A DNA stretch of 64,000 nucleotides from Xanthostigma xanthostigma (Eukaryota; Arthropoda; Insecta; Raphidioptera; Raphidiidae). A program made the translations under genes and the position numbers. The notes beneath the pieces were generated by a model. That model ran no database searches. It saw nothing but the letters and a program-made list of their open reading frames with translations, and had not been told where the DNA came from. This document shows, in pieces, positions 503 through 51,168 of the stretch. The first letter of the stretch is position 1; each line of letters begins with the position of its first letter. The stretch is from positions 5,890,001-5,954,000 of the forward strand of contig OY754464.1 in assembly GCA_963575645.1 (NCBI GenBank). Direction: 5' to 3'.

Positions 503-940
503 AAATAAATAAAATTGTCGACCAATTTTTCTCAGACCAATATATTGACAAAAAATAATAAAATTACAAATCAATATAACACAAGATGACGTTTCGATCC
601 GGATTTGGATCTTCTTCAGAAATATCTAAAAATATAAAAATTAATTAGTATTAAGTCATTTATTATCTAATAATAAATAACTTAATATTAATTATTTTTA
701 TATTTTTAGATTATATATTTTTATATTATTATTTATTATTAGATAATAAACAACTTAATACTAATTAATTTTTATATTTTTAGATATTTCTGAAGAAGAT
801 CCAAATCCGGATCGAAACGTCATCTTGTGTTATATTGATTTGTAATTATATTATTTTTTGTCAATATAGTGGTTTGAGAAAAATTGGTCGACAATTTTAT
901 TTATTTGAAGAGTTCTATTCAGACGTTAATCAAAGATTTG
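503..940 (+). mobile_element. Penelope-like snapback element, copy P1
   Basis: Two inverted arms of about 155 bp (503-657 and 752-906) flank an AT-rich loop. A one-sided 34-nt tail (907-940) follows the right arm. Flanking AGTAATATTTTTG occurs at 490-502 and 941-953, a 13-bp target duplication. Each arm carries a hammerhead-like core. Inverted terminal repeats with a short one-sided extension and variable duplications are described for Penelope-like elements; the assignment is inference, supported by a Penelope coding remnant at 26322. Confidence 0.7.
790..821 (+). ncRNA. Hammerhead-ribozyme-like core in P1 right arm
   Basis: CTGAAGA (790-796), then a GATCC/GGATC hairpin (798-813), then GAAAC (814-818) and GTC (819-821). 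This matches the conserved CUGANGA, helix II, GAAAC and GUC order. One extra A (797) sits before helix II and stem I pairing is weak, so cleavage activity is uncertain. A mirror copy lies on the minus strand at 588-619. Confidence 0.4.
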
Positions 941-1224
941 AGTAATATTTTTGCTTTTAATAATCACTTATAAAATGATTCGCGGGCCGGAGAAAATTCT
1001 ACTGCGGGCCGGATCCGGCCCGCGTGCCACCATTTGCCCAGGCCTGGTATAGATTGTCTTCACCGTACTACTAGCGCTGCTAGTGAGAAATTTTTCGTAC
1101 TTTATCAATAACCTCTTTTTAAGTCGGTTCAAACACACACAGCTGACATATTTTTTACCAACTAAGACCGACCGTAAAGAAATAAAAAAAAGGTCAGGGG
1201 TAAAAAAAAGGTTGAGAAACACTG

Positions 1225-1616
1225 CACTAGAAAACGACGCACGTACGAACAAGAAACACTGAAATCTCCCCACAGTTGACAACCAAGTTCCGTGTTGTAT
1301 CATTAATCATTTGGTTACAACTTGCAATTTTATTCTCGCCAAAAAAAAAATATCTCTTCACATCGTCGCATTTCCTGATGACTATGGTGATTACTTCTTC
1401 ACTCGGATCACTCCCATATACATATTTGAAACAATGACCGAATCAAACACGGCTTAATAGAGTAGATTAAAGACCAACCGCCCATTTGCGGTCAGACATT
1501 TTTAACCCCTCGACCAACAAGAGAAATGTTGTGTTATGACGTCATAGCTCTTGATTTCGATAGTTTTCTTTCGACATATAAAAATATCATTTTTAGTATT
1601 CCGTGCAAAATGGAAC
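1225..1616. other. No gene seen
   Basis: AT-rich DNA without a recognisable repeat end, coding remnant or tRNA-like signal. Confidence 0.5.
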
Positions 1617-1630
1617 ACTTATGGAACTAT

Positions 1631-1796
1631 TCAATAAATAAAATTATCGACCAATTTTTCAGACAAATATATTAACAAAAAATACAAAATGTCAATGTAT
1701 TAATTTTTATATTTTTTGTTAATATATTTGTTTGAAAAATTGGTCGATAATGTTATTTATTGAAGAGTTCTAATCAGACGTTAATCAAAGATTTGA
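1631..1796 (+). mobile_element. Penelope-like snapback, copy P2
   Basis: Short inverted arms (ATAAATAAAATTATCGACC and complement) around a small loop, followed by the same 34-nt tail as P1 (1762-1795). ACTTATGGAACTA (1617-1629) and ACTTATGGAATTA (1797-1809) form a 13-bp duplication with one mismatch. The hammerhead-like core is deleted. Confidence 0.7.
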
Positions 1797-1976
1797 ACTT
1801 ATGGAATTACTTGGGAGTCCGTCCGTCCGTTTGTCATAAGCGATTATCTCTGAAATTGTTAGACGCAACAATTTGAAATTTAGCACATAGGTAGTGTGTG
1901 GTCCAATTTCAGACATGAAACGTAAAAATTTGAATTTTGATTCTGGAAGTTAATTTTTAGGGGTAAATTGGGAAAT

Positions 1977-2090
1977 GAAAAATAGAAATATTTTTGAAGT
2001 TGGAATGGTCTCTTCGCTTAGTTGGCTAGAATTTGTTTTTAGCAGGATTGATGTAAAATTCTGCAATGCCTTTCTTATCAAGAAATTAGT
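1977..2090 (+). repeat. Partial copy of composite tRNA-like repeat
   Basis: The stretch around GGAATGGTCTCTTCGC-TTAGTTGGCTAGAA resembles the tRNA-like head seen at 9702-9775 (minus) and near 61320-61350. The cloverleaf is not complete here. The short open frame across it is not credible as a gene. Confidence 0.35.
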
Positions 2091-2162
2091 GTGGTTACAA
2101 TCTAAGGTCATTGTTAAACCAGAATTTTTGACAAAAATTCGTTTTTGCAGTCTAGCATAATA

Positions 2163-2694
2163 ATATTAGCTCTGTTCCAACCTCTCTGCGAACGCTAATA
2201 TTGTCGTCACAGTCATGCACAGTGGCTAAAACATGTTCCAACCGGTTCTAGAACTGTCCTTTAAGTCACAAAACACTGCAAAGTCGACGCATGCGCACAA
2301 AACCGATACAAGAAAAAGTGTGTGTGTCAGCTACGACGCACTACTGGAGATTACTCCTTAGATACGCCGTGTAATGTATTCCATCTCATTTTTTCGCACG
2401 TTAAATCCTACAGATATATATGTTTGTCCCTTTTGTATTCCATCTCACTCTTTGGTACGTTAAATCCTGCAGATATATATGTTTGTCTCTTTTGAAGCGG
2501 ACGAGCGTAACGCCACACTTGAAGCGGTGGAGCGTAACGCCTCGCCAATTGATTTTACTAGATACTCATAAAATTTCCGTACCGGGCCTTATAACTCAAA
2601 ATCGTTTCTTAAGGAGTAAACTCCAACAGTTTCGTTTTAGCTACTGCGACGATAATTATTACCGTTCGCAGAGAGGTTGGAACATAGCTATTAT
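2163..2694. mobile_element. DNA transposon with about 35-bp inverted ends
   Basis: The left end TTAGCTCTGTTCCAACCTC continuing to GCGAACG matches the reverse complement of the right end over about 35 bp with few differences. The interior holds a tandem duplication but no transposase. No clean target duplication was seen, so the superfamily is unassigned. Confidence 0.55.
2376..2494. repeat. Two-unit 59-bp tandem duplication
   Basis: Two units starting GTATTCCATCTCA at 2376 and 2435, about 90 percent alike. It lies inside the inverted-end element. Confidence 0.8.
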
Positions 2695-2818
2695 ATCTAT
2701 GCGAGTGTCGGTTCACACGCAGTGGGTATAAGGTGTAATATAAATAATGTTGTATAAATTAATTGTTGTATAAAGCGGGACGCGTTGTGGTCTGGACAGG
2801 CGTGCAGAGAGCAGAACT

Positions 2819-3045
2819 ATGGAGGATGTGTCCCCAGTGTATTGTTCTGTGAAGAACTGCGGCATGTCTCAGGGTCGAGCATGTCGAGTGCTCTTTAAAC
2901 AGCAGAAGGGAGCCCGACAATACGACAGCGTTGGCTCGATTTCATCATACCTCACTCCTTAAGAATGAGCCCTTATTGGACGCCGAGTCCATTTCAAAAT
3001 ATTCAATATGGCCGTTTTTGCATTGACAGTATATCTGGTGCCTAA
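2819..3045 (+). pseudogene. Degenerate THAP-like zinc-finger remnant
   Basis: From the ATG at 2819 the reading starts MEDVSPVYCSVKNC, resembling the first cysteines of a THAP domain, followed by LFK. After frame changes it continues as RQRWLDFIIPHSL, then LKNEPLLDAESISKYSI, then RFCIDSISGA. All three frames are used in turn, so at least two frameshifts separate the pieces. THAP domains are DNA-binding modules of many transposases and some host factors. The remnant ends where the next Helitron begins. Whether it came from a transposon or a host gene cannot be told. Confidence 0.5.
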
Positions 3046-3051
3046 GTTTTA

Positions 3052-3821
3052 TCTATACTAATATATAAAGCAGAAGAGTTTGTTTGTTTGAACGCGCTAA
3101 TCTCTGGAACTACTGGTTCGAATTGAAAAACATTTTTTTTTGTTGGATAGCCCATTTATCGAGGAAGGCTATAGGCTATATAATATCACGTTACGACTAA
3201 TAGGAGTGGAAAATCAATGAAAAATGTTGCAGAGTGTCAGTCAACATTTTTCACCATATACTTATATTCAGGTGAAATGCCCTAACAGAATAACCCAATA
3301 TTAGCGGCGCACGTACCGGATCTCGGTTAGCTCAGTCGGTAGAGCGCTCGGCTCTTAATCTCAGGGTCGTGGGTTCGAGCCCCACCTTGGACGAATATGT
3401 TTTTAATGTTTTTTTTTTATTTTCTACATTGCTTTTTTCTAAGGCTATCATTTTTTATTTTAGTTTTATTTACAACTAATTAAAATTAAATAAATCTAAA
3501 TAATAGCTCATTTGAAAACTATTACAGTACCTATATATAAAAATAAATTTCCTACAGTGTTTTCAATTAAATATTTATTATATTTTATTAATTATACAGT
3601 AATTATTGATTTAAAAGAAATAATTATTACTTAAAAAAAATATTTTCATCAAAAATGGAGGTTTGAGTTTAACATAAGTAATAAAGCAGGGAACTGCCGA
3701 AAACTGCAAAAAATTTGGACCCAACATTCATCTCGGTAAACTAATATGAATGTGCGTACTCATGTCCCTTCCGTCCCCATTCGTTCTTTTGCACCCGGGT
3801 GAAACCGGACGGGACCGCTAG
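3052..3821 (+). mobile_element. Helitron carrying a tRNA-like module (H1)
   Basis: Starts A|TCTATACTAATATATAAAG and ends GGGACCGCTAG|T, with a CCCGG/CCGG hairpin just before the terminus: the standard Helitron layout without inverted ends or target duplication. It matches the 354-bp copies at 44369-44722 and 33565-33918, but about 420 bp containing a tRNA-Lys-like segment lies in the middle. A second copy with the same module is at 57061-58890. Confidence 0.75.
3321..3393 (+). tRNA. tRNA-Lys-like pseudogene (CTT) inside Helitron
   Basis: TAGCTCAGTCGG (A box) and GGTTCGAGCCC (B box) are intact. The T arm pairs and the anticodon loop reads CTCTTAA, anticodon CTT. The acceptor ends do not pair and the anticodon stem is broken, so this is not a working tRNA gene. 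It may act as an internal RNA polymerase III promoter. Confidence 0.65.
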
Positions 3822-3986
3822 TTTAAAATATATTTCCTGAGCAAGATGTTTGCCGGTGTCGTTCAAAACGTAATTATATTGAAGGGAAAATAATTGGCAG
3901 AATAATTGATGCAAACTGTACTGATAAGGTAAACTTTGTTGCTTTCTGCAAGCCAACGTCAAATTTGAAAGAGAAACCGCATGAAA

Positions 3987-4091
3987 TCAGCGGTGTATAA
4001 AGCGCTGACAGCTGTCGTTTTCCAATTTAATAATTTTTATATCAACATTTGCACTTGATCTACTAACACAATTAGGTACTGCACACCTCAT
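3987..4091 (-). pseudogene. THAP-like N-terminus, 34 codons
   Basis: The minus-strand frame from 4091 starts MRCAVPNCVSRSSANVDIK and stops at 3987. CAVPxC matches the first zinc-binding cysteines of THAP domains, but the rest of the domain is missing. The relative at 62164-62223 begins MCCAVPSCVSKS. Agreement at protein level suggests descent from one coding element, probably a transposase. Confidence 0.5.
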
Positions 4092-4245
4092 TTCATGCTT
4101 CTTCTTCGATTTTTCAAATGATGCGTGTAACTTCCGTAATTGTAAGCAATAAATGTTTCTAAAAAGGCTTTACTATGAGACGCTTCGCATAGGATAGTTC
4201 GCTGAAGTGCTGAGTAGATAGCGCATGGTCGAAGTAAAATCTTAA
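3987..4245 (-). repeat. THAP-bearing dispersed repeat, copy 1
   Basis: On the minus strand this reads GGATAGTTC-like leader sequence (as complement) and then a THAP-like start. Related DNA is at 14725-14800, just beside an LTR insertion, and at 62025-62223 in the opposite direction. It appears to be the 5' end of a transposon family. No terminal repeat was resolved. Confidence 0.55.
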
Positions 4246-4424
4246 TAGAATCACTTTGTTGTCTGTCTGTTTGTCCGTCAAGCTTCTACCTCGATGCAAC
4301 AAAAAGGTACCACTTTTAACTGCATTGTCGATACACGGCAGTAAGTGAAAGTGTCGCCATCCTACATAATAATTGGGAACTAAATTGTTATAACGGTACG
4401 AAACTCTCAAGACGCAAGATCTAC

Positions 4425-4983
4425 CTACTAGGGATGTCGGAATGAAAAAAAATATCGATATATCGATGCATCGATATATATAAAAGTATCAATATCGACG
4501 TCGATATATCGAGGAAAAATATCGATATATCGGTTAAATTTTCAAAAGATTTTGCGTTTTTAAAATAATAGTGTATTTAGCTTAATATTATCAATAGTAA
4601 TTTTTATACAAAATGTACATTATTTTAATGTACAAAAATCTCAATAAAAATGAAGGTATTTTTACCAGTATTTCTTTTTATTAGGCAATATAATAATTAC
4701 AAAAATACCAAAAACTAAAAAGCTATCTTCTAGCTAACATTTTTAAACCTATTTATTGTATTAGGAAAACCAGTATTTGTCCGGTAGCGAAAGTATCCTT
4801 TACGGTTTTGGATTCTAGTGACTTTAGTTACATAAATTTAAAAAAAAAACGTTTTTGATACAATTTTCGATATTGGATAGTTTGTATCGATATATCGGAT
4901 CAAAATATATCGGCTAAAAATATCGATATTTTGAATTAAAAATATCGATACATCGATATATCGATACTTTTTCAACATCCCTA
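4425..4983. mobile_element. hAT-like element rich in ATCGATA
   Basis: Ends TAGGGATGT (4429) and ACATCCCTA (4983) are inverted, with extensive TATCGATA-rich sub-terminal repeats on both sides. AGATCTAC (4417-4424) and AGGTCTAC (4984-4991) look like an 8-bp duplication with one mismatch, though 4 extra bases lie beside the left end. No coding remnant. Confidence 0.65.
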
Positions 4984-5051
4984 AGGTCTACTCATACTTA
5001 ACTGTTTTTATTAATTTGTCACTCGGAATCACTTTTGTCTACCGCGCTTAA

Positions 5052-5950
5052 GGACGTAGTCTGGTGTTCGGGTTTTGAAAAAACGAATTTATTTTTTTTA
5101 CATTTTCAGTAAGTATATAATTGAGAAAATATTGTAAAAATTTTAGACCGAAATATTAAATATTAACAAAGCTATAGCATATAGTCGAGAGCAGCAACGG
5201 TCTTACGGTAAGACTTACCTGCTCTTACCTCTCAATTGTTATCACGTTACCCTTATACTCTCGCAGAGTAGAGCAAATAAATTAGCAGAAAACGATGCCT
5301 TTGAAGAAACGGAAGGTTTACTACTATATACACCAGGCATAGCTCATTAGTGTAAATATTCATTTTTATTTTTTTGTAAGAAATCTGAAATTAAAACTTT
5401 AAACGCGTTTTTCTCAAAACTACGTTTTTCTAAAGCGGCGCGGGTGATTGATACAATTGTATACAACCGATTGCTTTCAGTTTTGCACAGGGTATTCTAC
5501 ACAACAATAGCTCTGTCCGGTACTAGAATTACTTAATTATAAAAATTATTTCTATTTTTTTTAATCGATTTTCAACGAAAAAATCACGATTTTCTCGTTG
5601 TTTTTTTTCTAAAACCCGCCATTTTGGTATTTGTCAATAAAAATGTTTATTTCTAGTACGGGATAGAGCCACAAGCCTACGAAACAATAACCAATTTAAT
5701 TTTTATAATTCAGTTGACTCCAAGTGAAGTTATCACCCGCGCTACCCACCTACCTCTATTTAAGGTTGTCTACTTTAGGTTAAAAAACAATTATAAAATG
5801 GCGTAAAATTAAGCAAAAAAATTTTTTTTTCTTAGTTTACGATGTCAGTAAAAACATGTAACAAAATTGAAAACATCGTACATTATTTTGATATTAAAAA
5901 AAAATTCTGAAATAACGGTTGAAAACGAGCCTGAACATAGGACTACGTCC
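5052..5950. mobile_element. TTAA-flanked element, GGACGTAGTC ends
   Basis: GGACGTAGTC at 5052 is inverted as GACTACGTCC at 5950, and TTAA lies immediately outside on both sides (5048-5051, 5951-5954). TTAA duplication is the piggyBac signature, although typical piggyBac ends begin CCC or similar. The 899-bp interior has no transposase. Confidence 0.6.
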
Positions 5951-5954
5951 TTAA

Positions 5955-6396
5955 AGAAGTTTCAAAAAAGTAGAATTTCATAAAAATGTACCCGAGTTCG
6001 TATCTGTACCATTATTCTCGTATACGCACAATCGTGCGAGTCTTTTGTGACCAAATAGATCGAGGGTGTCTGTGCGGAAGACAATGTACTAGGTTCTAGT
6101 CGGGAAATATAATAGGGGAAACTAACGCTCTTGTTGATAATGTGAAAGATTGAAATTAACCTTACGACTTGGATCGCCTAGTCTGGTTCATTGACTTACA
6201 GAATGGACTGCGCCTTTAGTATTGCCGCCGACATGAGATTTTTCCCCCGTTTCGTGTTTTGAGACGAGATCGACATACAATTGTCGATATCTCGTCACGA
6301 AATGGGTAAGTATCGAGAGGAGAGCAGTGAAATATCGACACGCAGACTAGAATGGCAATTTTTCGGCGCGTTTTCTATCTACAAATGTTTGTGTAA
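5955..6396. other. No gene seen
   Basis: Unassigned AT-rich DNA; no repeat boundary recognised. Confidence 0.4.
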
Positions 6397-6520
6397 CGAG
6401 GAGAATATTCCACTCGCGTGTTACCGCACTCGCTACGCTCGTGCGGCAAATTGCACGCTCATGGAATCTTCTCCTTCTCTCACTAGTCGCACAATATACT
6501 ATTATTTAATTAATAGATAA
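6397..6520. repeat. Dispersed repeat with near-palindromic ends, copy 1
   Basis: GGAGAATATTCCACTCGCGT and, further on, TGGAATCTTCTCCTTCTCTC recur at 12354-12450. The inner part here has an extra CGCACTCGCTACGCTCGTGC hairpin that the other copy lacks. Confidence 0.6.
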
Positions 6521-6524
6521 CGTT

Positions 6525-7003
6525 ACACATCTACTGTAAGACTCGCTCATTTTTTCAAAAGAGACTTTTTCTGACTCGTTACACCGTCTAATTCATTAAC
6601 TCAATAGTCTGGTCGACTGGTGCAATAATTCCTATTGTCTGCAGTAAACCGAGTTCACTTATGCGATTGTCACTATAACTCACTATAATACTATATCGGG
6701 TGTCAGCTTCGGAGTTATTTTGAATTAAAAACGTTTTCGATAAGTTAGTTATCGCTCGCCCGAAACTTTTGTTCAAAAAGCTCACTTGTAGAATTTGCAG
6801 TGTAAATTTTGGCCTTTCATTTAGCGTTTACCTGAACACTTTAAAAATAGCGTCGGGAGAGCTGTAACCGTTTTTAGGCAAGGGAAAACATTTTGTATGA
6901 AGAGCGCGAGGGGTATTTCTAAGTAGCATATTTTTTACTCTTTAGTTAAGATCAGATTTCTGTCAAAACCGGTTTGAATAGGAGTAAAGTTTTGGATATA
7001 GGC
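6525..7003. other. No gene seen
   Basis: No coding remnant or repeat end recognised. Confidence 0.4.
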
Positions 7004-7007
7004 TATT

Positions 7008-7140
7008 CTATTACATAAAGAAGTATAATTTGTATATTTGTAGAGGATAATCTCGGTAACTACTGATTTTTTTCTAAGAAATTTTTTACTAATAAAAAGC
7101 TACACTATCCATGAGTAATATAACCTATATTTTAGTTTAA
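7008..7140 (+). mobile_element. Helitron 5' fragment
   Basis: TCTCGGTAACTACTGATTT followed by AAAGCTACACTATCCATGAG resembles the 5' half of common lepidopteran Helitrons. It matches the fragment at 21354-21480. Both termini are missing. Confidence 0.4.
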
Positions 7141-7483
7141 TAAAAAATAAAAACCTCAAATAAACTGACTTAAATTGAGTACGTGGTGGAAGTACAGTAA
7201 GTTTATGGTGGAACCACGGGTATATAAAAAGTCCATGTGCGCTCCGCTCGAGAAAACTAATGTGGTGAAGCCAAAGGTTCCAATACTGTTGTTGCTGTCG
7301 AATGACTCGCAATTGGGCTTTTGAATGAAATTTTTTTTTGTCATAAATGGAAAGATCGTATATAAGTTTTATAACAAAACTTTTTTTCTTTTTTTTATTT
7401 TCGTTATAATTCAAAAGTTATATCAAATTAAAAATAAATTTTTGTACCCAGTTCCGAGAACGCGCGACATTTCCGGAACATAA

Positions 7484-7571
7484 TGTGACGTCATAATGTT
7501 TTAGTCAATACACATGTAGAAGCCAGTGATAGTATACTGCGTATATACATTTTACCATTATGACGTCACAA
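7484..7571. repeat. Inverted repeat with CRE-like TGACGTCA
   Basis: TGTGACGTCATAATG at the left is inverted as CATTATGACGTCACA at the right, about 58 bp apart. It could be a small MITE. Each arm contains the palindrome TGACGTCA, which is also a CREB/ATF consensus; any regulatory role is speculation. Confidence 0.55.
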
Positions 7572-7574
7572 CTG

Positions 7575-8560
7575 TCAAAAACAATTTTAGTGCGTTTGCA
7601 GTCACGTGATTTTTTTAAATATTTTATCAATTTTAAATTGCTTATAATTAATTTAAAAAAAGTTTTTTGAAAGTTTTTCGCATCGATTATCAATATTATT
7701 TATATTAAAGTTTTAAAATACAATAAAAACATCAATAATTATTTTTTTTCAAAAGCCTAATTAAGGATTGTTCCCGGGAATTCCCTGAAAATTGCATCTC
7801 CTTCAGTACCGGGAAATGAAACCAATTTCCCGGGAATTCCGGTACCTACTACAAAAAATTGAACTAATTTAAATGTTTTAACTATTTTTTTTCAAACTGT
7901 AAATGCTGTAATCGTCGCCGGTGATTTGAAACATAACGTTTTATTTAAGTAAATAACACCCATGTGACCTTACCTCAATTTCTTTCCGCTTTACTGTCTA
8001 TTACGACTATACGAGTTTCTGTTAAGGTACGACTACGAGTTTAGAATTTTTGTGAATTTTTCAAAACCAGACTGAATAGCTACAATTTATAGACCAGTAA
8101 TAATAGCAAAAAAATCGGTTTTTTGCATTTTTTTCGAAAAATTTTTAGGTTAGGGTAAAAATGGTTAATACAAAAGATGTAAATCTTTTTATTATCTACA
8201 ACTTTTACATTTAACTTTTTTCGATAGAATGCATCTTTTAGCCAGAAATCGCGAAAAACTGATTTCAACCCCTAAAAAGCCACCCCATTCCACCCCGGAT
8301 ATCAGCAGACCTTATGGATTTATTTTTCCCTCTTTTAGAATATCTTATTCTACAATATCCCGGTGTCGGATTACTGTAACGAATTTTTTTGTTGTTCGAA
8401 CCCTATTATGACTGGCCTATTAATAAATTTTCATGACAAGAATGAATGAATTTTTGTTAAAGTTGAGTTAAGATAATACTTAATACTAAATTTGTTGATT
8501 ATCAAAGATTGTTATTAAGACTGATTGTAATATTTAAAGTTTATTGAATTGCGTAGGCTA
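7575..8560. other. No gene seen
   Basis: About 1 kb with a CCGGGAATTCC-type short palindromic patch near 7770-7850 but no coding remnant or bounded repeat. Confidence 0.4.
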
Positions 8561-8638: not shown

Positions 8639-9089
8639 TTACAGGAAATCTTCAAAATTATATAGACACAAATCATTTAGCAACTTTTTTATTTGTCTTG
8701 TAAATGCAGGTTGTGACAATTCTCTAGTAGCTATGGATAATTTATTATAAAATTTTGGAGCCCAAAAGTTGGGACCATTTGTTAATTTATTAAGCCTGTA
8801 TGAAGGGATTCTAATATCCTCTCTACTTCTGATGCTATAAGAGTGTACGCTCTCAACAATTTCAAATTTGACTATATTATCTTTGATATATTTCAAATTT
8901 TCTAAAACAAACAGGGAATATAAAGTTAAAATGCCATGTTCTTTAAATAATGGTTTGCATGTGGCCCTGAAATTACTTTTTGTTATTATGCGTACCTATA
9001 GCCTTTTCTGTAGTCGAAACACTCTTATAGCATCGGGAGCAGCTCCCCATAATTCAGTGATTTGTATTGTGATTAAACTTCTTCAAAAC
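8639..9089 (-). pseudogene. LINE ORF2 C-terminal remnant
   Basis: Minus-strand translation contains ELWGAAPDAIRVFRLQKR, then (after an in-frame TAG) VRIITKSNFRATCKPLFKEH and GILTLYSLFVLENLKYIKDN, and closes with FYNKL and CLYNFEDFL before a stop. This order (xLWG, FxLQKRxxRII, C+xLFKE, LTLxSLxxxE, FYNxLP-like, closing Y-x-EDFL) is the C-terminal region that follows the reverse transcriptase in jockey/CR1-type non-LTR elements. The downstream end is short and finishes in ATTACATTACATTA. The 5' side is cut off by a stop near 9089, as expected for 5' truncation. Clade is not certain. Confidence 0.85.
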
Positions 9090-9195: not shown

Positions 9196-9199
9196 ACAA

Positions 9200-15071: not shown

Positions 15072-15574
15072 TATATATATTAATACGCTAAGGTTTAAGA
15101 TGTTTGCCTCCCTTTTTAGAAAAAACCTCACAATTTTTCCACATAAATTATATATCATTTTACAGATAATTGCTTGCTCTACTGACATCGACAACTAAAA
15201 AATTTATTATTGCTTTTGTTTTTGTAAATTAATTAAAATACAGCAACGCTGAACAACGTCTGCCATCTGACGGCTTTAATTTTGAAACAGCGAGCAACGC
15301 CGAACAACGTCACAGCAATGCTGTATGATGCTTTCTGACGGCTTAGCTCAACGCTTTTGCTACTTGCGCCTCTATATGACAATTTTAGTAAAATATTTCT
15401 TCGATCTGTCATCTGAGCTTCATATTGTAATACAACAAAAAGAACGTTATAAGCAGTGTGCAAAATATTAGAAACGAATTGAATACCTGCAATCATATTT
15501 AAAAAATAATTTTGTAAAGTGATAATTATTATACCTACTTATTTAGTGCGAATAATTCGCACAGGTCACTCTAG
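15072..15574 (+). mobile_element. Helitron with GTGCGAA hairpin, copy 1
   Basis: The 3' end has a 7-bp hairpin GTGCGAA-TAA-TTCGCAC (15546-15562), 8 nt, then CTAG and a host T, the Helitron terminus. It aligns with 50375-51168 on the other strand. The two copies share long open frames only because the DNA is shared. This copy keeps the uninterrupted site CTTATTTAGTG beside GATAATTATTATA that is split by a Penelope-like insertion in the other. Confidence 0.75.
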
Positions 15575-25300: not shown

Positions 25301-25390
25301 CGGACATTAACCTCCACACTCACACAGTCTGATTTGCGTGTGTTGTTGTTACGTTCAACAGATGGCGCTCCCGTTGACGTAAAATTTTAC

Positions 25391-25699
25391 TTTAAATAAT
25401 TATAAATAGCGGGATGCGGACACATAGGTATAATTCTTTTCTTTTTATTGCTAACGTTTCATCAGAATTTCTGACTTTTTCAAAGCTCAAAAAACAATTT
25501 TTAATATTAGAAAATAAAGTTTAACATAAAAATTTATTTTCTACTTTAGAAAAAATCTTTTAATTTTTTTTATTAAAAAGTCAGAAATTCTGATAAAACG
25601 TTAGCAATAAAAAGAAAAGAATTATACCTATGTGTCCGCATTCCCGTTATTCATAATTATTTAAAATAAATATTACGGACTTTAAAATGGAAAATAATA
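25391..25699 (+). mobile_element. Penelope-like snapback, copy P5
   Basis: Arms of about 86-90 bp (25391-25478 and 25575-25665), then a one-sided 34-nt tail (25666-25699). GTAAAATTTTAC flanks at 25379-25390 and 25700-25711, a perfect 12-bp duplication. Arm sequence differs from P1-P4, so this is a separate family with the same architecture. AACGTTAGCAATAAAAAG replaces the clear ribozyme core. Confidence 0.7.
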
Positions 25700-25711
25700 G
25701 TAAAATTTTAC

Positions 25712-26321: not shown

Positions 26322-26504
26322 TACATTATTGAATACGACCATAAAATTAATTGGGATAGTGTTAAAAATTTAGATAATGAAAGTAATTATTTTAAAAGAA
26401 GTATTTCGGAAATGTTATATAGTATAAAATCTAATAACAACTCTCTTAATGCTCAATTAGATACGGAAAATTTAAGTAATATTTATGATATTATTTTGAA
26501 ATAA
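26322..26504 (+). pseudogene. Penelope-like element protein, C-terminal remnant
   Basis: Translation gives EYDHKINWDSVKNLDNESNY, then FKRSISEMLYSIKS, then LNAQLDTENLSNIYDIILK and a stop. H-x-I/F-NWD-x-V-K-x-L-D-x-E-S-N-Y-x-K-R-x-ISEM, ending in LDTExL, is the conserved tail following the GIY-YIG endonuclease of Penelope-like retroelements. The upstream frame is stopped at once, so only the last 60 codons persist. It supports Penelope origin for the snapbacks. Confidence 0.8.
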
Positions 26505-32195: not shown

Positions 32196-32259
32196 ACTAT
32201 TATAAAATAACAGAATCTGGAAGAGTAGCAAGAAAGACATTTCAATAATTTCCATTCAT

Positions 32260-32403
32260 TCAAATCTTTGATTAACGTCTGATTAGAACTCTTTAATAAA
32301 TACAATTATCGACCAATTTTTCGGACTGAAACGTTAATGTATTAATTATATATTTTATTAATATATTGTCTGAAAAATGGGTCGATAATTTTATTTATTG
32401 AAA
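32260..32403 (-). mobile_element. Penelope-like snapback, copy P3
   Basis: The 34-nt tail lies on the left (32261-32294, complement of the P1/P2/P4 tail). Arms AATAAATACAATTATCGACC and complement follow. AATTTCCATTCAT flanks at 32247-32259 and 32404-32416, a perfect 13-bp duplication. Confidence 0.75.
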
Positions 32404-32419
32404 ATTTCCATTCATATTT

Positions 32420-38428: not shown

Positions 38429-38511
38429 TGTACGTATGTACGTACGTACGTATGTACGTACGTATGTACGTACGTATGTACGTACGTATGTACGTACGTA
38501 TGTACGTACGT
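38429..38511. repeat. TACG/TATG microsatellite
   Basis: Units of TGTACGTACGTA repeated about seven times. Copy 1 has only about 20 bp here (31166-31188). All three forward frames are open because the unit is a multiple of three, giving false TYVC/VRTY frames. Confidence 0.9.
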
Positions 38512-38768
38512 CACGACTCTACAGATCGCAATTTTGGTCGGATTGCCTTGGGTTATATTTTATTCACTTTGTTTACTATCAGACCAGAACCCTATTTAAA
38601 TTCACTAAAATGTGTTCAGTTGTTTAATTTTTATAAACAGTTTTATTTTATTATTTTTGACAGCTAATAGTTTAAAAAAACAATATAATAATTGCTGTGT
38701 AAATATAGTGTAATCCATCAAACAAGTGCTACACTTCTATACCGTGATAACACCACTACACGTATTAG

Positions 38769-39497: not shown

Positions 39498-40326
39498 GCC
39501 GTATTCATAACGACCTGTTAAATCTCTCAATAGTTATTGAATCGTTAACTGTTATTGAACCAATAAGGAAAGTTGGTATTCATGAAGCAAAATTGTCAAA
39601 TATATAACTATTGTCTGGTTAAGATTTGTGTCCTTATTATAAATTGTAAGTTTTTCAGTGGATATCAGGTAAAATGAAATATCCATAAATATCTTATCTT
39701 TTTCACGCTGATGAAAACAAAACAATAATCAAATCTGTGTTAACATCTGATTATATTATATAATAAATAATATTTCTGACAAATTTTCAGATAATCTTTC
39801 GTACTAACCAAATTAACACGTGATCTATGGAGGGTAGAGATTCCTCTGATGTGATCAATAACGCAGCCATATTGGATTAATTGTCAAAAGCCGAAAAGAA
39901 ATTGAATAGAATATATTTTTTTCCTTGTCAAAAACTTAAGTTGTTCATAATTTTAATAAAGATTGTCTGAAAAGTTAGTTCAAAACAATATTTGATCCTA
40001 AAAAAAATGAAACTCCAAAAACATTATCCGAACTTTGTAATTATCTGAAATTATACCTAATAACCAAATTTACATGTGATCAATAACACAGCAGCCATAT
40101 TGAATTAATTGTCAAAAACCAAAAAGAAATGAAATATAATATATTTCTGTCCTTGTTAAATCGTCTAATAAATAGTTTAATAGGTTGATCTTCTACCTAT
40201 TAAATTACTGGATTTAAACATCCAATAGCACTTATATGTTTTTTGTGAATACCAAATCTGTCTATTAGTTGGTTTATTAGTACAATCTACCTGTTAAATT
40301 AGTTATTGCTTCTTTATGAATACGAC
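39498..40326. mobile_element. Inverted-end element, GCCGTATTCATAA
   Basis: GCCGTATTCATAA at 39498 and TTTATGAATACGAC at 40326 are inverted; the inner CTGTTAAAT also mirrors. An internal stretch (AACGCAGCCATATTGGATTA) is repeated about 230 bp on. No coding remnant. Confidence 0.5.
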
Positions 40327-43100: not shown

Positions 43101-43104
43101 TTAT

Positions 43105-43620: not shown

Positions 43621-43624
43621 TTAG

Positions 43625-44090: not shown

Positions 44091-44104
44091 TACTTTAATC
44101 TATA

Positions 44105-44361
44105 ATTGGATGGATAAATAGCGGCTATGGATCAATGAATGCTGTACTTTGTATTATTCATTTAATATATTATCTTACGTTTCGGCACATTGTTTATTGC
44201 CATCTTCAGAGATTCTAATTCTAAAAATGTGCCGAAACGTAAGATAATATATTAAATGAATAATACAAAGTACAGCATTCATTGATCCATAGCCGCTATT
44301 TATCCATCCAATTATTTCGATTAAGGATCGCAAATCTACAAATTTTGTAGTAGAAGATAAT
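44105..44361. mobile_element. Penelope-like snapback, copy P6
   Basis: Arms of about 98 bp (44103-44200, 44229-44314) around a core reading, on the minus strand, CTGAAGATGGC ... GTGCC GAAACGTA, with ATCT/AGAT as stem I. Flanks ACTTTAATCTATA (44092-44104) and ACTTGAATCTATA (44362-44374) match at 12 of 13. The tail is 47 nt, not 34, so it is a variant. The right duplication overlaps the start of the next Helitron. Confidence 0.6.
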
Positions 44362-44368
44362 ACTTGAA

Positions 44369-44722
44369 TCTATACTAATATATAAAGCTGAAGAGTTTAT
44401 TTGTTTGTTTGAACGCGCTAATCTCAGGAACTACTGGTTCGAATTGAAAAATATTTTTTTTGTTGGATAGCCCATTTATCGAGGAAGGCTATAGGCTATA
44501 TAATATCATACTACGATCAATAGGAGCCGAACATCGATGAAAAATGTTGTAAAGTGTAACTCAGAATTTGTCCGTCCGACAAAAATTTTTGAACGGTAAC
44601 TCCGATTATCATGAAATTTGGACTCAACATTCATCTTGGTAAACGAAGATGAATGTGTGTACTCATGTCCCTCTCCCTCATTCGGTCTTTTGCACCCGGG
44701 TGAAACCAGGCGGGACCGCTAG
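44369..44722 (+). mobile_element. Helitron, 354-bp family (H2)
   Basis: A|TCTATACTAATATATAAAG to GGCGGGACCGCTAG|T, with CCCGGGTGAAACC before the end. It serves as the reference copy: no tRNA-like module, no insertion. A snapback struck its first 6 bp. Confidence 0.8.
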
Positions 44723-44947
44723 TATATTAATATGTTTCCAGGATCAAATTAATATTGTAAGTGCGAAAGTAACTGTATGTCTGTCTGTAACCGCTGGGCC
44801 GATTGTGATGAAATTTAATATGAAGATAGTTTAAACTCTGGGGAAGAACATGAATTACTTTTTTTTTGAAAATTAACCCCTGAAAGTAAATTCCTTCTCA
44901 TAAATTAAGGTTAAAAATAAGAGTTACGGTACTTTTAATCTAAAATC

Positions 44948-45304
44948 TTGATGCGCCCAAATTTTGTGATGGTACACGTTTCTCATCTGGGTCGAAATAT
45001 TGTTAAGGCTATTATAATTAGTGGCAAATCTAAAGGGGGCAGTGTTTTAATACCACGAATACCAATTATACCAACGGATATGCCTTTTAAATTTGAAAGA
45101 TTACAATTTCCATGCTTTCGGAATAACTATAAACAAAACCCAGGGTAAACATTTAATGTAGCTGGCATTCATTTAGAAAACCCAAGTTTTTCGCACGGCC
45201 AGCTGTAAGTGGCTTGCTCACGTGTATCGAATCCATACAAAATCTTTGTTTTCGCAAAACATGGTAAAACAAAAAACGTCGTTTATAGGGCCGTCGTAAA
45301 TTAG
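44948..45304 (+). pseudogene. Helitron helicase C-terminus, broken
   Basis: The frame reads SHLGRNIVKAIIISGKSKGG, then VLIPRIPIIPTDMPFKFERL and QFP, matching the C-terminal helicase region of RepHel proteins. A +1 slip hides AFGITINKTQG, the PIF1-type motif with TINKxQG. The main frame then resumes as TFNVAGIHLENPSFSHGQL, TAA, VACSRV ... GKTKNVVYRAVVN and the final TAG. HGQL(Y)VACSRV is helicase motif VI. Breaks: stops at 45146 and 45206 and the local slip. The start is truncated near 44940. The stop lies 73 bp before the Helitron terminus, as expected for an autonomous parent. Confidence 0.9.
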
Positions 45305-45339
45305 AATTTTGCTTGAATTTTTGATTTTTTTATCAATTA

Positions 45340-45377
45340 TACATATTCCACGCGAACGAAGTCGCGGGTAAAGCTAG
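45340..45377 (+). mobile_element. 3' terminus of the helicase-bearing Helitron
   Basis: GCGAACGAAGTCGCGGGTAA-AGCTAG followed by T: a hairpin with CGCGAACGAAGTCGCG, then CTAG. The same terminus style as 28310. Confidence 0.8.
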
Positions 45378-45379
45378 TT

Positions 45380-46830
45380 ACAATCTATATTCAAAATGAG
45401 GTTGGGAACATTATTATATTATTTTATCCCTGAAATTTACATATTTCTAAGAGCAATAAATACAATCTGCGTACACTATCACTGTATGACATATCGGGCA
45501 CGTCTGGTACATCAGGCAATCGAACCCATATCGTTAAACAAACCCAGCCCACTGATCTCTAATTACAGGGATTGTGGATACTCGACTATACAACTCCTGA
45601 ATTCTCTTATGCTGAACTGCAGACGGCGTTGTTAAAAAAATGAAGTTGACAATCACCTTAGATTGTGATCATATGGTTACAGTTTTTATACAAGCAACAG
45701 CAGAATGTCGCTGCCAAACTCTCTGTCATGTAGAACATTAGATTGTACTCACAGAAAAACAAATGATTGCGTTTCAAACTAAATTTTGATCCATATATGC
45801 GTGGAAAAATGTTGTCTCGAAGTAGATATTTTTCATTATGTCAAAAAAAGCGATCAATAATATTAAATTAATGATTCGATTAAACGTAAATCGATCTTTT
45901 AATGCTCAATTTGACCGAGAATCGGTTCTATTGGGCGTTCAATTCGAATTGATTTTGATACGAAACAACTATTGGCGCGTTTGGCAGCAAAACCGTGCCG
46001 TGACGGAAACGGGATCACGCTCTCTTATGTCCCCTCTACGCCACCGCTCTCGACTTACCTTGTGTGTTCGCGCGCATATAGGTATACTGTACACTCGTTT
46101 CTTCTCCGTGTGAGCTGTCACAACTCACACAGAGACGCTGCGTATACTGCGTGTGCGACTATAGATGCCTGACACGTTCACCGCTTGTATATTAGTTACA
46201 GGGTCAAATTTAGTTACTTAAAATTTCGCTTTAATGCATGTTTCACATCTGCCAGGCTTCCCACGACGGCCACTAATTTTTTTTTAGATTCGTCTGCTTT
46301 TAAAGTCAACCATCAAATTGTGTTCACACAATGTGATCGCCATACGTAATCCACGTGCTAGAGATCAGTGAAACACCCAAATGGGGCAAAGCAGACCTCT
46401 TTAGGCAATGACATTGATTATGTAATGGTATTGCCTCAAGACCTTTGCTCTGCCCCGTTCTACCGTGTAACCGTCGGCTGCATTTCAATCAGATTGAAAA
46501 TGAAAAATGTATATACGCAGATAGCACGCACACTTGAAATCTTGTATTAACTACATTTCTACTGTATCAAATAAATATTCATTAACATTTTTTAGAGCTA
46601 TAATTTTAAACATTATTGAAGATTTATTGGTGTGAAACATCTATATTAAAATGTGACGGCAAACGGCATGATGCTCTCCCCCTCTCCGCCAGCGCTTTCG
46701 ACTCGTAATTTAGTAACTAGAATTTCACATGCATGTTTCATATCTGCCAAGCGTCCCACGACGGCTAATCTGGAATTATCTGTATTTAGCCGTATTCTAC
46801 TATTTGTGTTCTAATTAATGTTCTTATGGT
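45380..46830. other. No gene; low-copy repeated text
   Basis: Phrases such as CATGTTTCACATCTGCCAGG and GTCCCACGACGGC at 46240-46275 recur at 46735-46762. GCGCGTTTGGCAGCAAAACC near 45975 resembles 54800-54830 and 57015-57050. No ends or coding motif found. Confidence 0.4.
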
Positions 46831-46833
46831 CTA

Positions 46834-47551
46834 AGAGCTGGCTACGGAGGGGTAGGGGTCACTCGGTGCAAAGCTGAAAATTTGCAGAATAATAGGAGAT
46901 AGTACAAGTAAGCAGGGAAAAAATTGCCAGAAGGCTAGGCGGAAGATAAAGAGCCGCCAGAAGGCGCTAATGTTGCGAAAAATCAGTGCACTTCTGGCAA
47001 TTTCTATACTTATTCTGTAATTCAAAACTAGATTATATTATATTATATATAGGTATTATACATTATATAGTTATAGGGGCATACTGAAAATTCAAACATG
47101 ATATAATAATTACATTCGACAAATATTCAAAATTATTATGTAATGTCATTTTGATAGAAATAAAATTAAATAAATTAATAAAATTAAGTTGTTATAACAA
47201 CTTAGGTAATTTTATTAATGAAAATATATGACGATTAATTTTATTTCTATCGAAATGACATTAATAATTTTGAATATTTGTCGAATGTAATTATTATATC
47301 ATGTTTGAATTTTCAATATGCCCTTATAACTATGTAATGTATAATATACCTAATCTAGTTTTGAATTACAGAATAAGTATAGAAATTGCCAGAAGTGCAC
47401 TGATTTTTCGCAACATTAGCGCCTTCTGGCAGCTCTTTATCTTCCGCCTAGCCTTCTGGCAATTTTTTCCCTACTTACTTGTACTATCTCCTATTATTCT
47501 GCAAATTTTCAGCTTTGCACCGAGTCACCCATTTTCTCCGTAGCCAGCTCT
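46834..47551. repeat. 718-bp near-complete palindrome
   Basis: AGAGCTGGCTACGGAG ... CTCCGTAGCCAGCTCT. Arms of about 350 bp meet at AAGTTGTTATAACAACTT (47186-47203) with almost no loop. Mirror-image frames (46831-47025 minus, 47301-47543 plus) give the same peptide only because of the palindrome. No target duplication seen. Confidence 0.85.
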
Positions 47552-47695
47552 CCATCTTTTACGTAACCACAGTGATTATAAAATTTATAAGCACTGTTTG
47601 TAATCATTAATGTTTAACATGCTAGTTGGGTAGTCACTTTGCTTAACAGAATAAAAAACAAACAAAAGTGGTTATTTTGCTAAACACTTGGTATT

Positions 47696-47812
47696 GGCCA
47701 TTCAAGTATAACGTAAGCACCAAAGGGAGGAGGGGGTTTTGCTTACTTTTGCTGACAAGAGGGAGGGGGGTAAAAATTACTAAAATTCTGCTTACGTAAT
47801 ACTTGAATGGCC
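47696..47812. mobile_element. Small MITE, GGCCATTCAAGTAT ends
   Basis: GGCCATTCAAGTATAACGTA and complement TACGTAATACTTGAATGGCC at the ends; 117 bp with a G-rich middle. Confidence 0.7.
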
Positions 47813-47814
47813 CC

Positions 47815-48820
47815 TAGTAGAATAGGATCTGATTGTTTCGATTTTTTTGTTGGGGATGTTTTTGTCTAGAATTATATTATTTCTGGTATACAATTTTTTT
47901 TTGGTAATGCCTATAGGAGATGTTGTTGAAACTTTCTTCCCGGAATAATAATACGAAGATTTTATGACCGGTAACTTTTGATTTAGATGAAAAACAGATT
48001 TTTTATCAATTTTTAGCATGTTTTTAAAAAAACTCCAAAGATTTCGAATATTTCATTTTTACGTGGTTTTAAAAATATTTATTATCTCTAGGAGAGGCAT
48101 TTTTTCATAAAAAATATAGGTAATCATATAATTGGACGTAATGTGCTTTCCGCCATTTAAAACTTTTCGTCTTACAGGTTACAACAAACTGAAATGAAAT
48201 TTATATAATCAATTTTGAAAAAAAAACGAAAATATGACAGAATGTTTTGGCATATTTGACTATGCATAAAAACATTTTTTTTTGTTAATAAAAAGCTATT
48301 TCTGGAAATCGCTTACTTATGTGCGATCATGCAGTTAGGTGATTGCCTAGTTTATTCGTATCAGTGTTGCCAGATGTGTAAAAAATTCCTAGATTTTAAC
48401 TTTCTTATATTCTTTTACAATGATAATCCTCAAACAATCGATTTGTTTGGTGTCGGACTCCAGTTTAAAAAATGTTTACACTTTTGACACTATTGTGTTT
48501 GTTATACAAAAGTGTAACCACGAGTTATATACCTAACACCTTTCAACTCGTACCAATCGGTGTGTGTAAGTTGACTGGCAATAATAAACACACAGACGCT
48601 GATTAACTCAGTTGTTGAGCGTTTACAATCTATATGTATCTAAAGATGTTACACTTTAAAAGTTCCTAATATGGCATCACTGGTTCGGATTCCATATTGC
48701 CAGATCCGCGACTTGTAGGCGGCCAGGCGTTTGCCTGCCAATGCGTGTTTTGACCGATGATCGGTGTCGGATTCGGATGAGCTGTGACAGCTGTGCCCGT
48801 TAACAGAAGCCGCTAAAGGC
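47815..48820. other. No gene seen
   Basis: 1 kb AT-rich stretch without bounded repeats. Confidence 0.4.
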
Positions 48821-48824
48821 CGTT

Positions 48825-49200
48825 GCACACGAGGCTAGTTTTGCCGCTGAAATCATTGCTGCGAAGATGGAAATGCGGGATTGCGTGCGTGCTCACAAGA
48901 TAGATTATAAATAAGAACCGGGGTTTTTTCGCGCTTGTTTATCTGCTTGTTTTCTACAAGAACCAGTCAGGAAACATTATACATATTGTGTGTTCTATTC
49001 AGAGACAATAAACGTTCTTTTTTGTTAACATTCGAAATGTCACTGTGCGCGCATCTATAGCCAGTTTCAATGCACCCATCGTTTGAAATGAAAACATAAA
49101 AAGCATCACGAAACCCAGCGCCCCAGCACGCTTAAAACCTAGAAGCCAAATCTAGTAAGGAACCTGGCGGAAATACCAACCTCGTGTACAGCTGCCTTTA
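48825..49200. mobile_element. CACACGAG inverted-end element, copy 2
   Basis: AAAGGCCGTTGCACACGAGG at 48825 and CCTCGTGTACAGCTGCCTTT at the right end. Shares interior with 16740-17125. Confidence 0.65.
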
Positions 49201-49204
49201 TTCC

Positions 49205-49700
49205 TAGTCTCAACCGTTGTCTTTGTGCTATTGCGTGAAGTTAGCCATTAACAAAGTAATCTTATATGGTGGCTTTATGCTGACTGTTTGAAAACAATAG
49301 CTCTCTATAAGTTGTTATTGTTATGGAAATAATATCACTATTATGTTAAGATATATGTAAATGCCATTAAAACTGACTCTTCACATCTTTAACGTCGACT
49401 TTATAATATATTTCTCCTTTTGTTAATTATCTTTAGTACATAGTATTGTACACTATGTGCTAGGTAATATCTGGAACAAGAGAATTAGTATGCATGTAAA
49501 TCTATAGCATTGGAAAAATATTGATAATATCCTTAAACAATTAAACATATTGTGATGTTTAATAGATAGTCAAGAAATTCGGGTGAAATCGGATCGCGTC
49601 GCTAGTGTAAAGTTTTTTGTGAACTTATACATATGGCGTTTTGGAATCGAGACTGCCCCGGCACAGGGCAGGCCGAATGAGTAACTATCGGAAAAAACTG
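49205..49700. other. Helitron-like 3' end in unassigned DNA
   Basis: GGGTGAAATCGGATCGCGTC-GCTAG ends at 49605 followed by T. No other part of that element was found. TAGTACATAGT/ACTATGTGCTA forms a small hairpin near 49435. Confidence 0.4.
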
Positions 49701-49717
49701 TAACTGAAATACATTAG

Positions 49718-49991
49718 CATTATTTTTTTCATTGTTTGGAATTTTCCTATTTGTTGGCACATTGTTACAAATTTTTTCAATTGTTATGTCGATTTGAGAA
49801 AAAAAAACAAATTACGTTAATAAAATCCTAAAGTAAGATTTACATTATTTTTTTCATTGTTTGGAATTTTTCTATTTATTGGCACATTGTTACAAATTTT
49901 TTCAATTGTCGATTTGAGAAAAAAAAAACAAATTACGTTAATAAAATCCTAAAGTAAGATTTACATTATTTTTTTCTTTGTTTGGAATTCT
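49718..49991. repeat. Tandem repeat, about 121-125 bp, 2.2 units
   Basis: CATTATTTTTTTCATTGTTT starts units at 49718 and 49843, with a third partial at 49964 (mutated CTTTG). Units differ mainly by a 4-bp indel (TTAT). Confidence 0.85.
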
Positions 49992-50164
49992 CGTTATCAG
50001 AAATCATCTTTAGTTCCGGAACGCGTTTCTGTCCAAAAAGGAAGTACCGGAACGACGTTCCGGAGCGTTCCGGCTCGACAACACCACTGGATTGGTTGAT
50101 GTACTTGCATTTAATCTGAATAAAATATCTCTGTTTCAAAAACGTTGTCATTTTCTATGACGTT

Positions 50165-50262
50165 AACATAGGCGTACCCAGCTTTTGGCCCAGGAGGGGG
50201 CAAATTAGAAATTTCTTAAGCCGGGTCCCCCGTGCTTGTTTTGCCCTCCTGGATACGCCAGT
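50165..50262. mobile_element. Small MITE, AGGCGTACCCAG ends
   Basis: TAGGCGTACCCAGCTTTTG and, inverted, CTGGATACGCCAGTG. About 98 bp, no coding. Confidence 0.5.
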
Positions 50263-50374
50263 GCTTACGGCGTAAAAAAAGACAGAAGTATATGTTTGCA
50301 CCCTAATAGTTCGATTGCGATTTTATTTCTATGCTCAGTACCTATAGAATAAAAGTATATGAATATAAATTATA

Positions 50375-51168
50375 CTAGTGTGACCTGTGCGAATTATTCG
50401 CACTAAATAAGTATAATAATTATCAATAAATAAAATTATCGACCAATTTTTCAGACAATATATTAACAATATAAAATTAATACATTAACGTTTCGATCCG
50501 GATCGAAACGTTAATGTATTAATTTTATATTGTTAATATATTGTCTGAAAAATTGGTCGATAATTTTATTTATTGAAGAGTTCTAATCAGACGTTAATCA
50601 AAGATTTGAATAATAATTATCACTTTACAAAATTATATTTTAAATATGATTGCAGGTATTCAGTTCGTTTCTAATTTTGCACACTGCTTATAACGTTCTT
50701 CTTTTTGTTGTATTACAATATGAAGCTCAGATGACAGATCGAAGAAATATTTTACTAAAATTGTCATATAGAGGCGCAAGTAGCAAAAGCGTTGAGCTAA
50801 GCCGTCAGATGGCATCATGCAGCATTGCTGTGACGTTGTTCAGCGTTGCTCGCTGTTTCAAAATTACAGCCGTCAGATGGCAGTATGCAGTATTGCGTCT
50901 GTTGTATTACAATATGAAGGCCAGATGACAGATCGAAGTGTTGACGTTGTTTCAAAATTAAAACCATCAGATGTCAGACGTTGTAAAGCGTTGCTGTATT
51001 TTAATTAATTTACAAAAACAAAAGCAATAATAAATTTTTTAGTTGTCGATGTCAGTAGAGCAAGCAAAATTATCTGTAAAATGATATATAATTTATGTGG
51101 AGAAATTGTGAGGTTTTTTCTAAAAAGTGAGGCAAACATCTTTAACCTTAGCGTATTAATATATGTGA
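50375..51168 (-). mobile_element. Helitron with GTGCGAA hairpin, copy 2, interrupted
   Basis: Minus strand candidate start A|TCACATATATTAATACGC (51168) to the hairpin (50387-50403), 8 nt, CTAG (50375) and T. It aligns with 15072-15574. Insertion P4 splits it near the 3' end. The middle has an extra GCCGTCAGATGGCAGTATGC unit not in copy 1. Confidence 0.75.
50425..50609 (+). mobile_element. Penelope-like snapback, copy P4, perfect palindrome
   Basis: 50423-50576 is a perfect 154-bp palindrome with GATCCGGATC at its centre. The shared tail follows (50575-50608). ATAATAATTATC flanks at 50413-50424 and 50610-50621, a perfect 12-bp duplication; the uninterrupted site survives at 15525-15550. The ribozyme-like core is reduced to CGTTTCGATC fused head to head. 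Confidence 0.85.

Follow-up and report, generated by a model that had tools for sequence, protein, structure and literature searches.

Tailed inverted pairs of Penelope-like half-copies in Xanthostigma xanthostigma and a possible origin by paired target-primed reverse transcription

How does a short element without coding DNA come to consist of two inverted arms with an additional tail at only one of its two ends? This question is raised by a stretch of 64,000 nucleotides (the window) from the raphidiopteran insect Xanthostigma xanthostigma (assembly GCA_963575645.1, contig OY754464.1, positions 5,890,001 to 5,954,000), in which a first-pass annotation had described five such elements, P1 to P5, each reading duplication, arm, loop, inverted arm, one-sided tail and duplication. 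All five were recovered in place with this layout, and a further element that the annotation lacked was identified; together they fall into three families, here called A, B and C. Judging from their sequences, P1 to P4 are short insertions of Penelope-like elements (PLEs) and not a separate class, and P5 and the family C element are very probably PLE insertions too. As objects, the elements in the window are ordinary and very numerous members of the PLEs, and their interest lies in the data that they provide on an unsettled integration mechanism. We think it rather likely that they represent two half-copies of the 3' part of a PLE, the pseudo-long terminal repeat (pLTR), placed head to head by paired target-primed reverse transcription. 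The PLE-related features are, in window coordinates:

503-940, + strand: P1, family A (diverged subfamily), with untailed arm, loop, arm and a tail at 909-940; 13-bp duplication at 490-502 and 941-953; hammerhead core at 790-821 in the right arm, mirrored in the left arm
1627-1796, + strand: P2, family A, tail at 1764-1796; perfect 10-bp duplication at 1617-1626 and 1797-1806
25391-25699, + strand: P5, family B, tail at 25666-25699 (34 nt); 12-bp duplication at 25379-25390 and 25700-25711; hammerhead-like motif lacking stem II at 25450-25467 (- strand), with an altered copy at 25588-25605 (+ strand)
26328-26501, + strand: C-terminal fragment of a Penelope open reading frame (ORF), 76% identity to the C-terminus of the family-A ORFs
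32260-32402, - strand: P3, family A, tail at 32260-32292; 13-bp duplication at 32247-32259 and 32403-32415
39729-39782, - strand: decayed family-A end, tail (7 edits) and arm end (4 edits)
44105-44361, + strand: PLE-like family C element, arms at about 44105-44194 and 44223-44312, tail at 44313-44361 (49 nt); 13-bp duplication with one mismatch at 44092-44104 and 44362-44374; hammerhead core at 44179-44209 (- strand)
50426-50609, + strand: P4, family A, tail at 50577-50609; 13-bp duplication at 50413-50425 and 50610-50622

Penelope identity and outer ends

The inverted arms of the window elements extend far beyond chance. An inverted-repeat scan with a minimum of 40 nt gave arms of 181 nt with 97% complementarity in P1, 66 nt (94%) in P2, 103 nt (83%) in P5 and 77 nt (100%, no loop) in P4, which is a perfect palindrome with the CCGG of a hammerhead stem II at its centre. 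The arms of P3 pair across 34 nt, under the scan minimum, around a loop of 41 nt.

Family A is abundant in the 623 Mb of genome searched. Its 33-nt tail was found 15,642 times with at most three mismatches and its 28-nt arm end 31,568 times, with no match to the reversed-pattern control in either case. The ratio of arm ends to tails, 2.02, corresponds to one tail per two arms, which is approximate because the two patterns differ in length. The P5 query had 102 listed matches and the family C query (from 44 kb) had 120; the scoring covered 40 of 389 candidates for P5 and 40 of 221 for family C, and palindromic copies may match repeatedly.

For closer study, 40 loci were taken by their tail, in list order and omitting the window's own copies, and 20 by their arm end, skipping elements already included and a few late places, each from a list of 100 places. 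All of the sampled places, which carry L-numbers below, are perfect-match copies in the first 10 Mb of one contig, and the samples thus represent young copies of a single region. Among the tail-selected loci, the untailed arm end lay within the fetched stretch in 29 of 40; L071 was in addition settled through a neighboring stretch, and L079 was read by eye as a deleted arm with a 13-nt duplication. The tally of 29 leaves out L108 and L109, whose untailed ends are doubtful (5 edits) and which were likewise left out of the end-anchored loop count; both were kept in the 34-element duplication test, and L109 also in the 26-element end and flank-motif sets. In the arm sample, one tailed and one untailed end were identified in 12 of 20 loci (L081, L082, L084, L086-L091, L093, L095 and L096), including L087, in which the tail is cut by the stretch edge, L090, in which it is decayed, and L096, the tail of which was found in L103.

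The link to Penelope that the first-pass annotation had suspected is borne out for family A, in which the same pLTR and tail stand beside a Penelope ORF. In L076, a GIY-YIG C-terminus is located upstream of a family-A pLTR and tail, with a Pfam score of 21.5 bits at a cut-off of 22.6, and a related frame in L083, where the pLTR end is untailed, scored 23.0 bits, above that cut-off. ORF C-terminal sequence was present in four of the 60 sampled loci, namely these two, L114 and L071, which is one element with L103 and L096. In this element, an arm of about 200 nt that bears the tail meets, head to head, an ORF-bearing arm that extends from the ORF C-terminus to an untailed pLTR end and has an apparent later insertion inside. 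A 13-nt duplication flanks the whole element, which carries one tail, just as the coding-free copies do, and inverted pLTRs at the ends are present in the sampled family-A copies. That the elements contain no coding DNA, as previously described, is therefore correct for P1 to P5 but not for family A at large. The suggested tie between P5 and the Penelope fragment near position 26322 found no support, since the fragment resembles the family-A ORFs; for families B and C, PLE membership follows from architecture and motif, not from an ORF. A fragment in L101 resembles the thumb of a PLE reverse transcriptase; Pfam gave no reverse transcriptase match for it.

The outer ends of the sampled family-A copies are fixed, with a tail of about 33 nt and a duplication of 13. 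Duplications of at least 12 nt were identified in 19 of 34 elements and of at least 13 nt in 18 of 34, with 13 as the commonest length (14 of 34), whereas mismatched flank pairs, used as a control, had at least 12 nt in 0.09% of cases and at least 13 nt in none. Among the 26 family-A elements with a duplication of at least 12 nt, its length was 13 in 17 and 12-14 in 25. In reference coordinates, the untailed end of these elements lies at -6 to +3 (median -1) and the tailed end at +26 to +34 (median +32), and the tail measures 27-38 nt (median 33); overlap of the duplication with the element accounts for some of the spread in end positions. Duplications of at least 10 nt were found in 13 of 23 family B rows and 7 of 8 family C rows, all of which are query-selected copies. 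A weak match to a second tail on the untailed side, not scored as a tail, was seen in 5 of the 23 family B rows (10 edits of 31 allowed); in two of these five, L034 and L039, the duplication abuts the untailed end.

Within family A, the tail end and the duplication length vary little. The tail of 34 nt previously thought to be shared across families agrees with the window copies of family A (about 33-34 nt) and family B, but not with family C, in which the tail of 49 nt also exceeds the published range of 30-40 bp; a universal 34-nt tail was accordingly rejected.

The flanks share a symmetric motif. Outside the duplication, and with each strand read toward the insertion, their last letters are often AA and then usually C or T: A occupies position -3 in 36 and position -2 in 37 of 50 outside flanks, against a background of 32.5% (p about 1e-8), and the corresponding counts in a second set, picked by similarity to P4, were 17 and 14 of 24. 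Of 25 elements, 16 have AA in the left flank and 10 in the right, and 6 have it in both. The missing A at -1 may be an artefact of duplication calling, with element ends absorbing the A; this effect does not account for the signal at -2 and -3. On the cut strand, the motif reads as a predicted nick before (A/G)TT, matching the ATT preference of a purified PLE protein that cuts and extends both strands (PMC11167929). The symmetry of the motif and the constant 13-bp spacing suggest that both ends lie at nicks made by the same enzyme.

Inner ends and the route of insertion

The inner ends vary among copies, and also between the arms within one copy. The mapping took in 52 loci or elements, of which 40 gave a pair of inner ends, with four ends at the reference edge. 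The two ends of one element differ by at least 10 nt in 31, by at least 30 nt in 19 and by at most 3 nt in 7 of the 40, and the Spearman correlation between the positions in the two arms is 0.28 (p 0.08). In a reference-free check, the arms were aligned from the outer ends inward without being able to cross the center, and this left an unpaired middle of at least 10 nt in 34 and at least 30 nt in 23 of 41 elements (median 43). The mapping agrees with this check, in that 31 of the 33 such elements that were mapped differ by at least 10 nt, the exceptions being L119 and L093. A loop-free call for 29 of 38 elements, made by gapped self-alignment, was discarded because that alignment bridges loops. 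In contrast to the snapback form attributed to these elements in the first-pass annotation, most of the sampled copies are no tight hairpins and have an unpaired middle. Copying within a tight hairpin was rejected as a general rule, since the inner ends are unequal in most sampled copies.

We propose the following route. The PLE endonuclease would nick the two strands at a distance of 13 nt within a symmetric AAY-N13-RTT site, yielding two 3' ends, each of which would prime reverse transcription of PLE RNA. A start at the inner site would produce the untailed arm and a start about 33 nt further 3' the tailed arm. Each complementary DNA (cDNA) would stop at a 5' truncation point of its own, which is often within the pLTR but in some cases within the ORF. 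The cDNA 3' ends would then be joined, partly through brief complementarity, for example at the CCGG palindrome in stem II, and sometimes with filler added at the join. Fill-in would finally yield the 13-bp duplication. In family A, the anatomy, the PLE identity, the fixed outer and differing inner ends, the symmetric flank motif and the duplication length are established from the sequences. That each end marks a start of reverse transcription, that both strands prime, how the ends were joined and in what order the events took place is what we infer.

The strongest argument for paired priming is the tail rule. If a tailed strand were copied upon itself the tail would be copied as well, and an untailed strand copied upon itself could not gain one, which favors two separate starts; two starts, one at each of the published start sites, would leave a tail on one end and none on the other. 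The alternative that bears most directly on this point is self-priming, in which the 3' end of a cDNA or antisense RNA folds back and copying then yields a head-to-head repeat with a palindrome or a loop at the junction. This is how the inverted pLTRs of Adineta vaga were explained by the authors of that study (PMC3846280), and it would account for the palindromic junctions in P4, L062, L065, L122 and L123, for loops of any length, for the untailed arm being more often the longer one and for the resemblance between the arms of one element. We nevertheless consider it unlikely here, because the second arm ends about 33 nt short at a near-constant place, although a back-copy should include the tail, and because the same nick motif is present at both flanks. 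Furthermore, the surplus is sometimes on the untailed and sometimes on the tailed arm, which we count in favor of paired priming and against self-priming.

The distribution of the inner ends also bears on a second alternative, a PLE lineage, itself non-autonomous, whose copies are propagated as preformed hairpins, either retrozyme-like or in the manner of miniature inverted-repeat transposable elements (MITEs), with the PLE enzyme acting in trans. The very high copy number would fit such a lineage, as would the 15 further loci to which the P4 query aligned over nearly its full length (86-95%) and the published mobilization by PLEs of other sequence located between pLTRs (PMC3846280). However, the inner ends are scattered in samples that were not selected by junction. 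They cluster near the 3' strand of the hammerhead stem II, with 13 of 80 ends in a stretch of 10 nt where 4.5 are expected (p 0.0005), and the stop at -84 in stem II recurs with varied partner ends (-84, -110 and -147), as expected of a pause in reverse transcription. The first-pass annotation had proposed a non-autonomous class mobilized as hairpin RNA or DNA; this is unsupported, since variable inner ends fit truncation at each insertion rather than one spreading hairpin, and we regard a hairpin lineage as improbable, although a small one may exist.

A foldback or MITE-type DNA transposon with its transposase elsewhere, which could share the inverted arms, the shortness, the fixed-length duplication and the many copies, and for which a transposase-like frame that encodes a DUF4817 helix-turn-helix (L102, 328-822; Pfam E 3e-13) 3.8 kb from a family-A arm end might speak, is highly improbable given that the one-sided tail makes the terminal repeats asymmetric, that inner ends vary, that hammerhead cores are present, that the two other foldbacks in the window (46856-47530 and 57629-58493) have no such tail by eye, and that the ORF-bearing copies found are Penelope, with no genome-wide transposase search made. 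No second arm or tail was identified between the DUF4817 frame and the arm end in L102, and there was no sign that the frame belongs to the element.

The junctions give a mixed picture. In 24 direct junctions, the two arms overlap by at least 5 nt in 18, compared to 25% of simulated joins; both this subset and the 10-nt hot spot in stem II were chosen after inspection of the data. Microhomology as a general feature of the junctions is unsupported, the enrichment being limited to these 24 direct joins.

Paired priming has several observations to contend with. Across all junctions, the overlap was not above simulation (p 0.93), and at least 6 nt lie between the mapped arms at 17 of 41 junctions, some through later insertions. 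In vitro, both start sites were used on both strands with no difference (PMC11167929), and the restriction to one start site per strand is left unexplained by paired priming. The longer arm was the untailed one in 24 elements and the tailed one in 10 (p 0.02), with equal arms in 7 (n = 41), a bias that paired priming does not predict; before this count, L074 was manually corrected because of a nested insertion, and P3 was entered manually. Inner ends are equal in 7 of 41 elements, with P4 a perfect palindrome, and although unequal inner ends fit paired priming, taken alone they leave self-priming with a loop possible. The divergence between the arms of one element (mean 3.4%) is lower than that between elements (5.8%), and separate source RNAs for the two arms were thus not demonstrated. 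Nine of the 40 tail-selected and six of the 20 arm-selected loci (L083, L085, L092, L097, L099 and L100) stayed unresolved, and a further 4 kb inward contained no family-A match in L092, L099 and L100. In addition, L094 has a partial second tail, L098 is tail-less and the untailed end of L091 is at +8. Finally, families B and C yielded no link to an ORF, and the GIY-YIG evidence is limited to family A.

A bolder hypothesis is that the head-to-head joining of two cDNAs, primed together at a symmetric 13-nt double nick and begun at two different RNA start sites, is the normal outcome of PLE insertion, to which we would give slightly less than an even chance. If so, the inverted pLTRs and the one-sided tail would be signatures of the integration mechanism rather than accidents.

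Hammerhead motifs and neighboring features

A motif search identified hammerhead motifs in the pLTRs of families A and C, for which cleavage is a prediction. Among the distinct cores, many of which are related copies, 36 of 42 have at least four stem II pairs, as compared to 4.3% in shuffles. Cores with different stem II sequences were found in family A, in family C and in other repeats of the sampled loci, and further hammerhead-like cores with yet other stem II sequences are located near position 67 in L002, 551 in L116 and 2311 in L127, pointing to more PLE families in the genome. Family B keeps CTGATGAAACGTTA at 25450-25467 and 25588-25605, a hammerhead core in which stem II is reduced to nothing.

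A search of the window against Rfam gave no match to any hammerhead family, even at E-values up to 5, and the matches at the window palindromes were mainly to microRNA models, under the gathering score. The inner palindrome of P4 (50466-50533) scored 51.7 bits against mir-2041 (E 2.7e-7), for which the gathering score is 70. The core common to the two is GAAACGTT, the hammerhead core of the PLE pLTR, and the mir-2041 microRNA family may be derived from PLEs. Many microRNA-model matches are also drawn by an ACGT-type tandem repeat at 38429-38513.

The long foldback elements at 46856-47530 (termini AGAGCTGGCTACGGAG) and 57629-58493 (termini ACAGGGTGAGTC) look like inverted repeats of the DNA-transposon type, and a similar insert is present within L074. 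One open frame (HTAYNVL...QYEAQMTDRRNILLKLSYRGASSKSVELSRQ) occurs twice, at 15233-15538 (- strand) and, adjoining P4, at 50650-50928 (+ strand), and represents a repeat. The open frame at 8639-8995 (- strand) is one that we take to resemble the C-terminus of ORF2 in long interspersed nuclear elements, with no supporting match in Pfam. A tRNA-Asn gene was predicted by ARAGORN at 58547-58619 (- strand), with an Rfam score of 26.9 bits, just under the gathering score of 29.

Relation to known systems

The route by which PLEs integrate is an open question, on which the roughly 15,600 tailed ends of a single family bear. In the sampled copies, the junction can often be read together with the target site and the two element ends, so that self-priming and paired priming can largely be weighed by counting. 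Paired priming furthermore gives a precise prediction for in vitro work, namely a symmetric AAY-N13-RTT double nick with one start site per strand. A call for experiments on PLE integration has been made (PMC3846280), and the tail has been explained by two reverse transcription start sites, with later steps still to be validated (PMC11167929). Inverted pLTRs and 3' extensions are mentioned in PMC8969392, and the available text of PMC12910113 adds nothing on PLE structure. A literature search for Penelope and twin priming, which covered titles and the starts of abstracts and left most subscription papers outside its coverage, gave nothing on PLE integration, and a search for Penelope and "34-bp extension" gave no paper. 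The paired-priming idea may have been published before, older papers on Penelope structure having been outside the search.

In the twin priming of L1 elements, both target strands prime reverse transcription and an inversion results, the second primer starting inside the RNA. Here, in contrast, both starts would lie close to the 3' region, each at one of two fixed sites.

The metazoan retrozymes with type I hammerheads are likewise short, without ORFs and equipped with hammerhead cores, and PLEs, which contain minimal hammerheads, have been proposed as their candidate helpers (PMC7229834). According to the available text of that study, however, the retrozymes are tandem repeats, whereas the copies sampled here are inverted pairs with a one-sided tail.

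A closer parallel is found in the Poseidon/Penelope element of Anolis, PAc, in which the tail is bounded by two reverse transcription start sites, both target strands are cut and extended with a preference for ATT, and a hammerhead motif is located at the junction between pLTR and ORF (PMC11167929). This is a vertebrate system studied in vitro, and the portion of the study available contains no analysis of head-to-head products and no rule that assigns start sites to strands.

The natural counterparts are the Penelope elements of Adineta vaga, Pen2a_Av and others, in which pLTRs are matched by an inverted pLTR at the opposite end. One inverted pLTR may carry a tail of 31 bp, the inverted junctions contain palindromes, and unrelated sequence is carried between the pLTRs. 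These features are shared with the present elements, and the inverted pLTRs, tail and palindromes are explained there by self-priming on antisense RNA (PMC3846280). In the cases quoted, the duplication is 8-10 bp as compared to 13 bp here, and the elements are of low copy number and mostly ORF-bearing, whereas many of the pairs behind the approximately 15,600 tails reported here have no ORF. In the present sample, unlike in the available text of that study, the inner ends were measured copy by copy.

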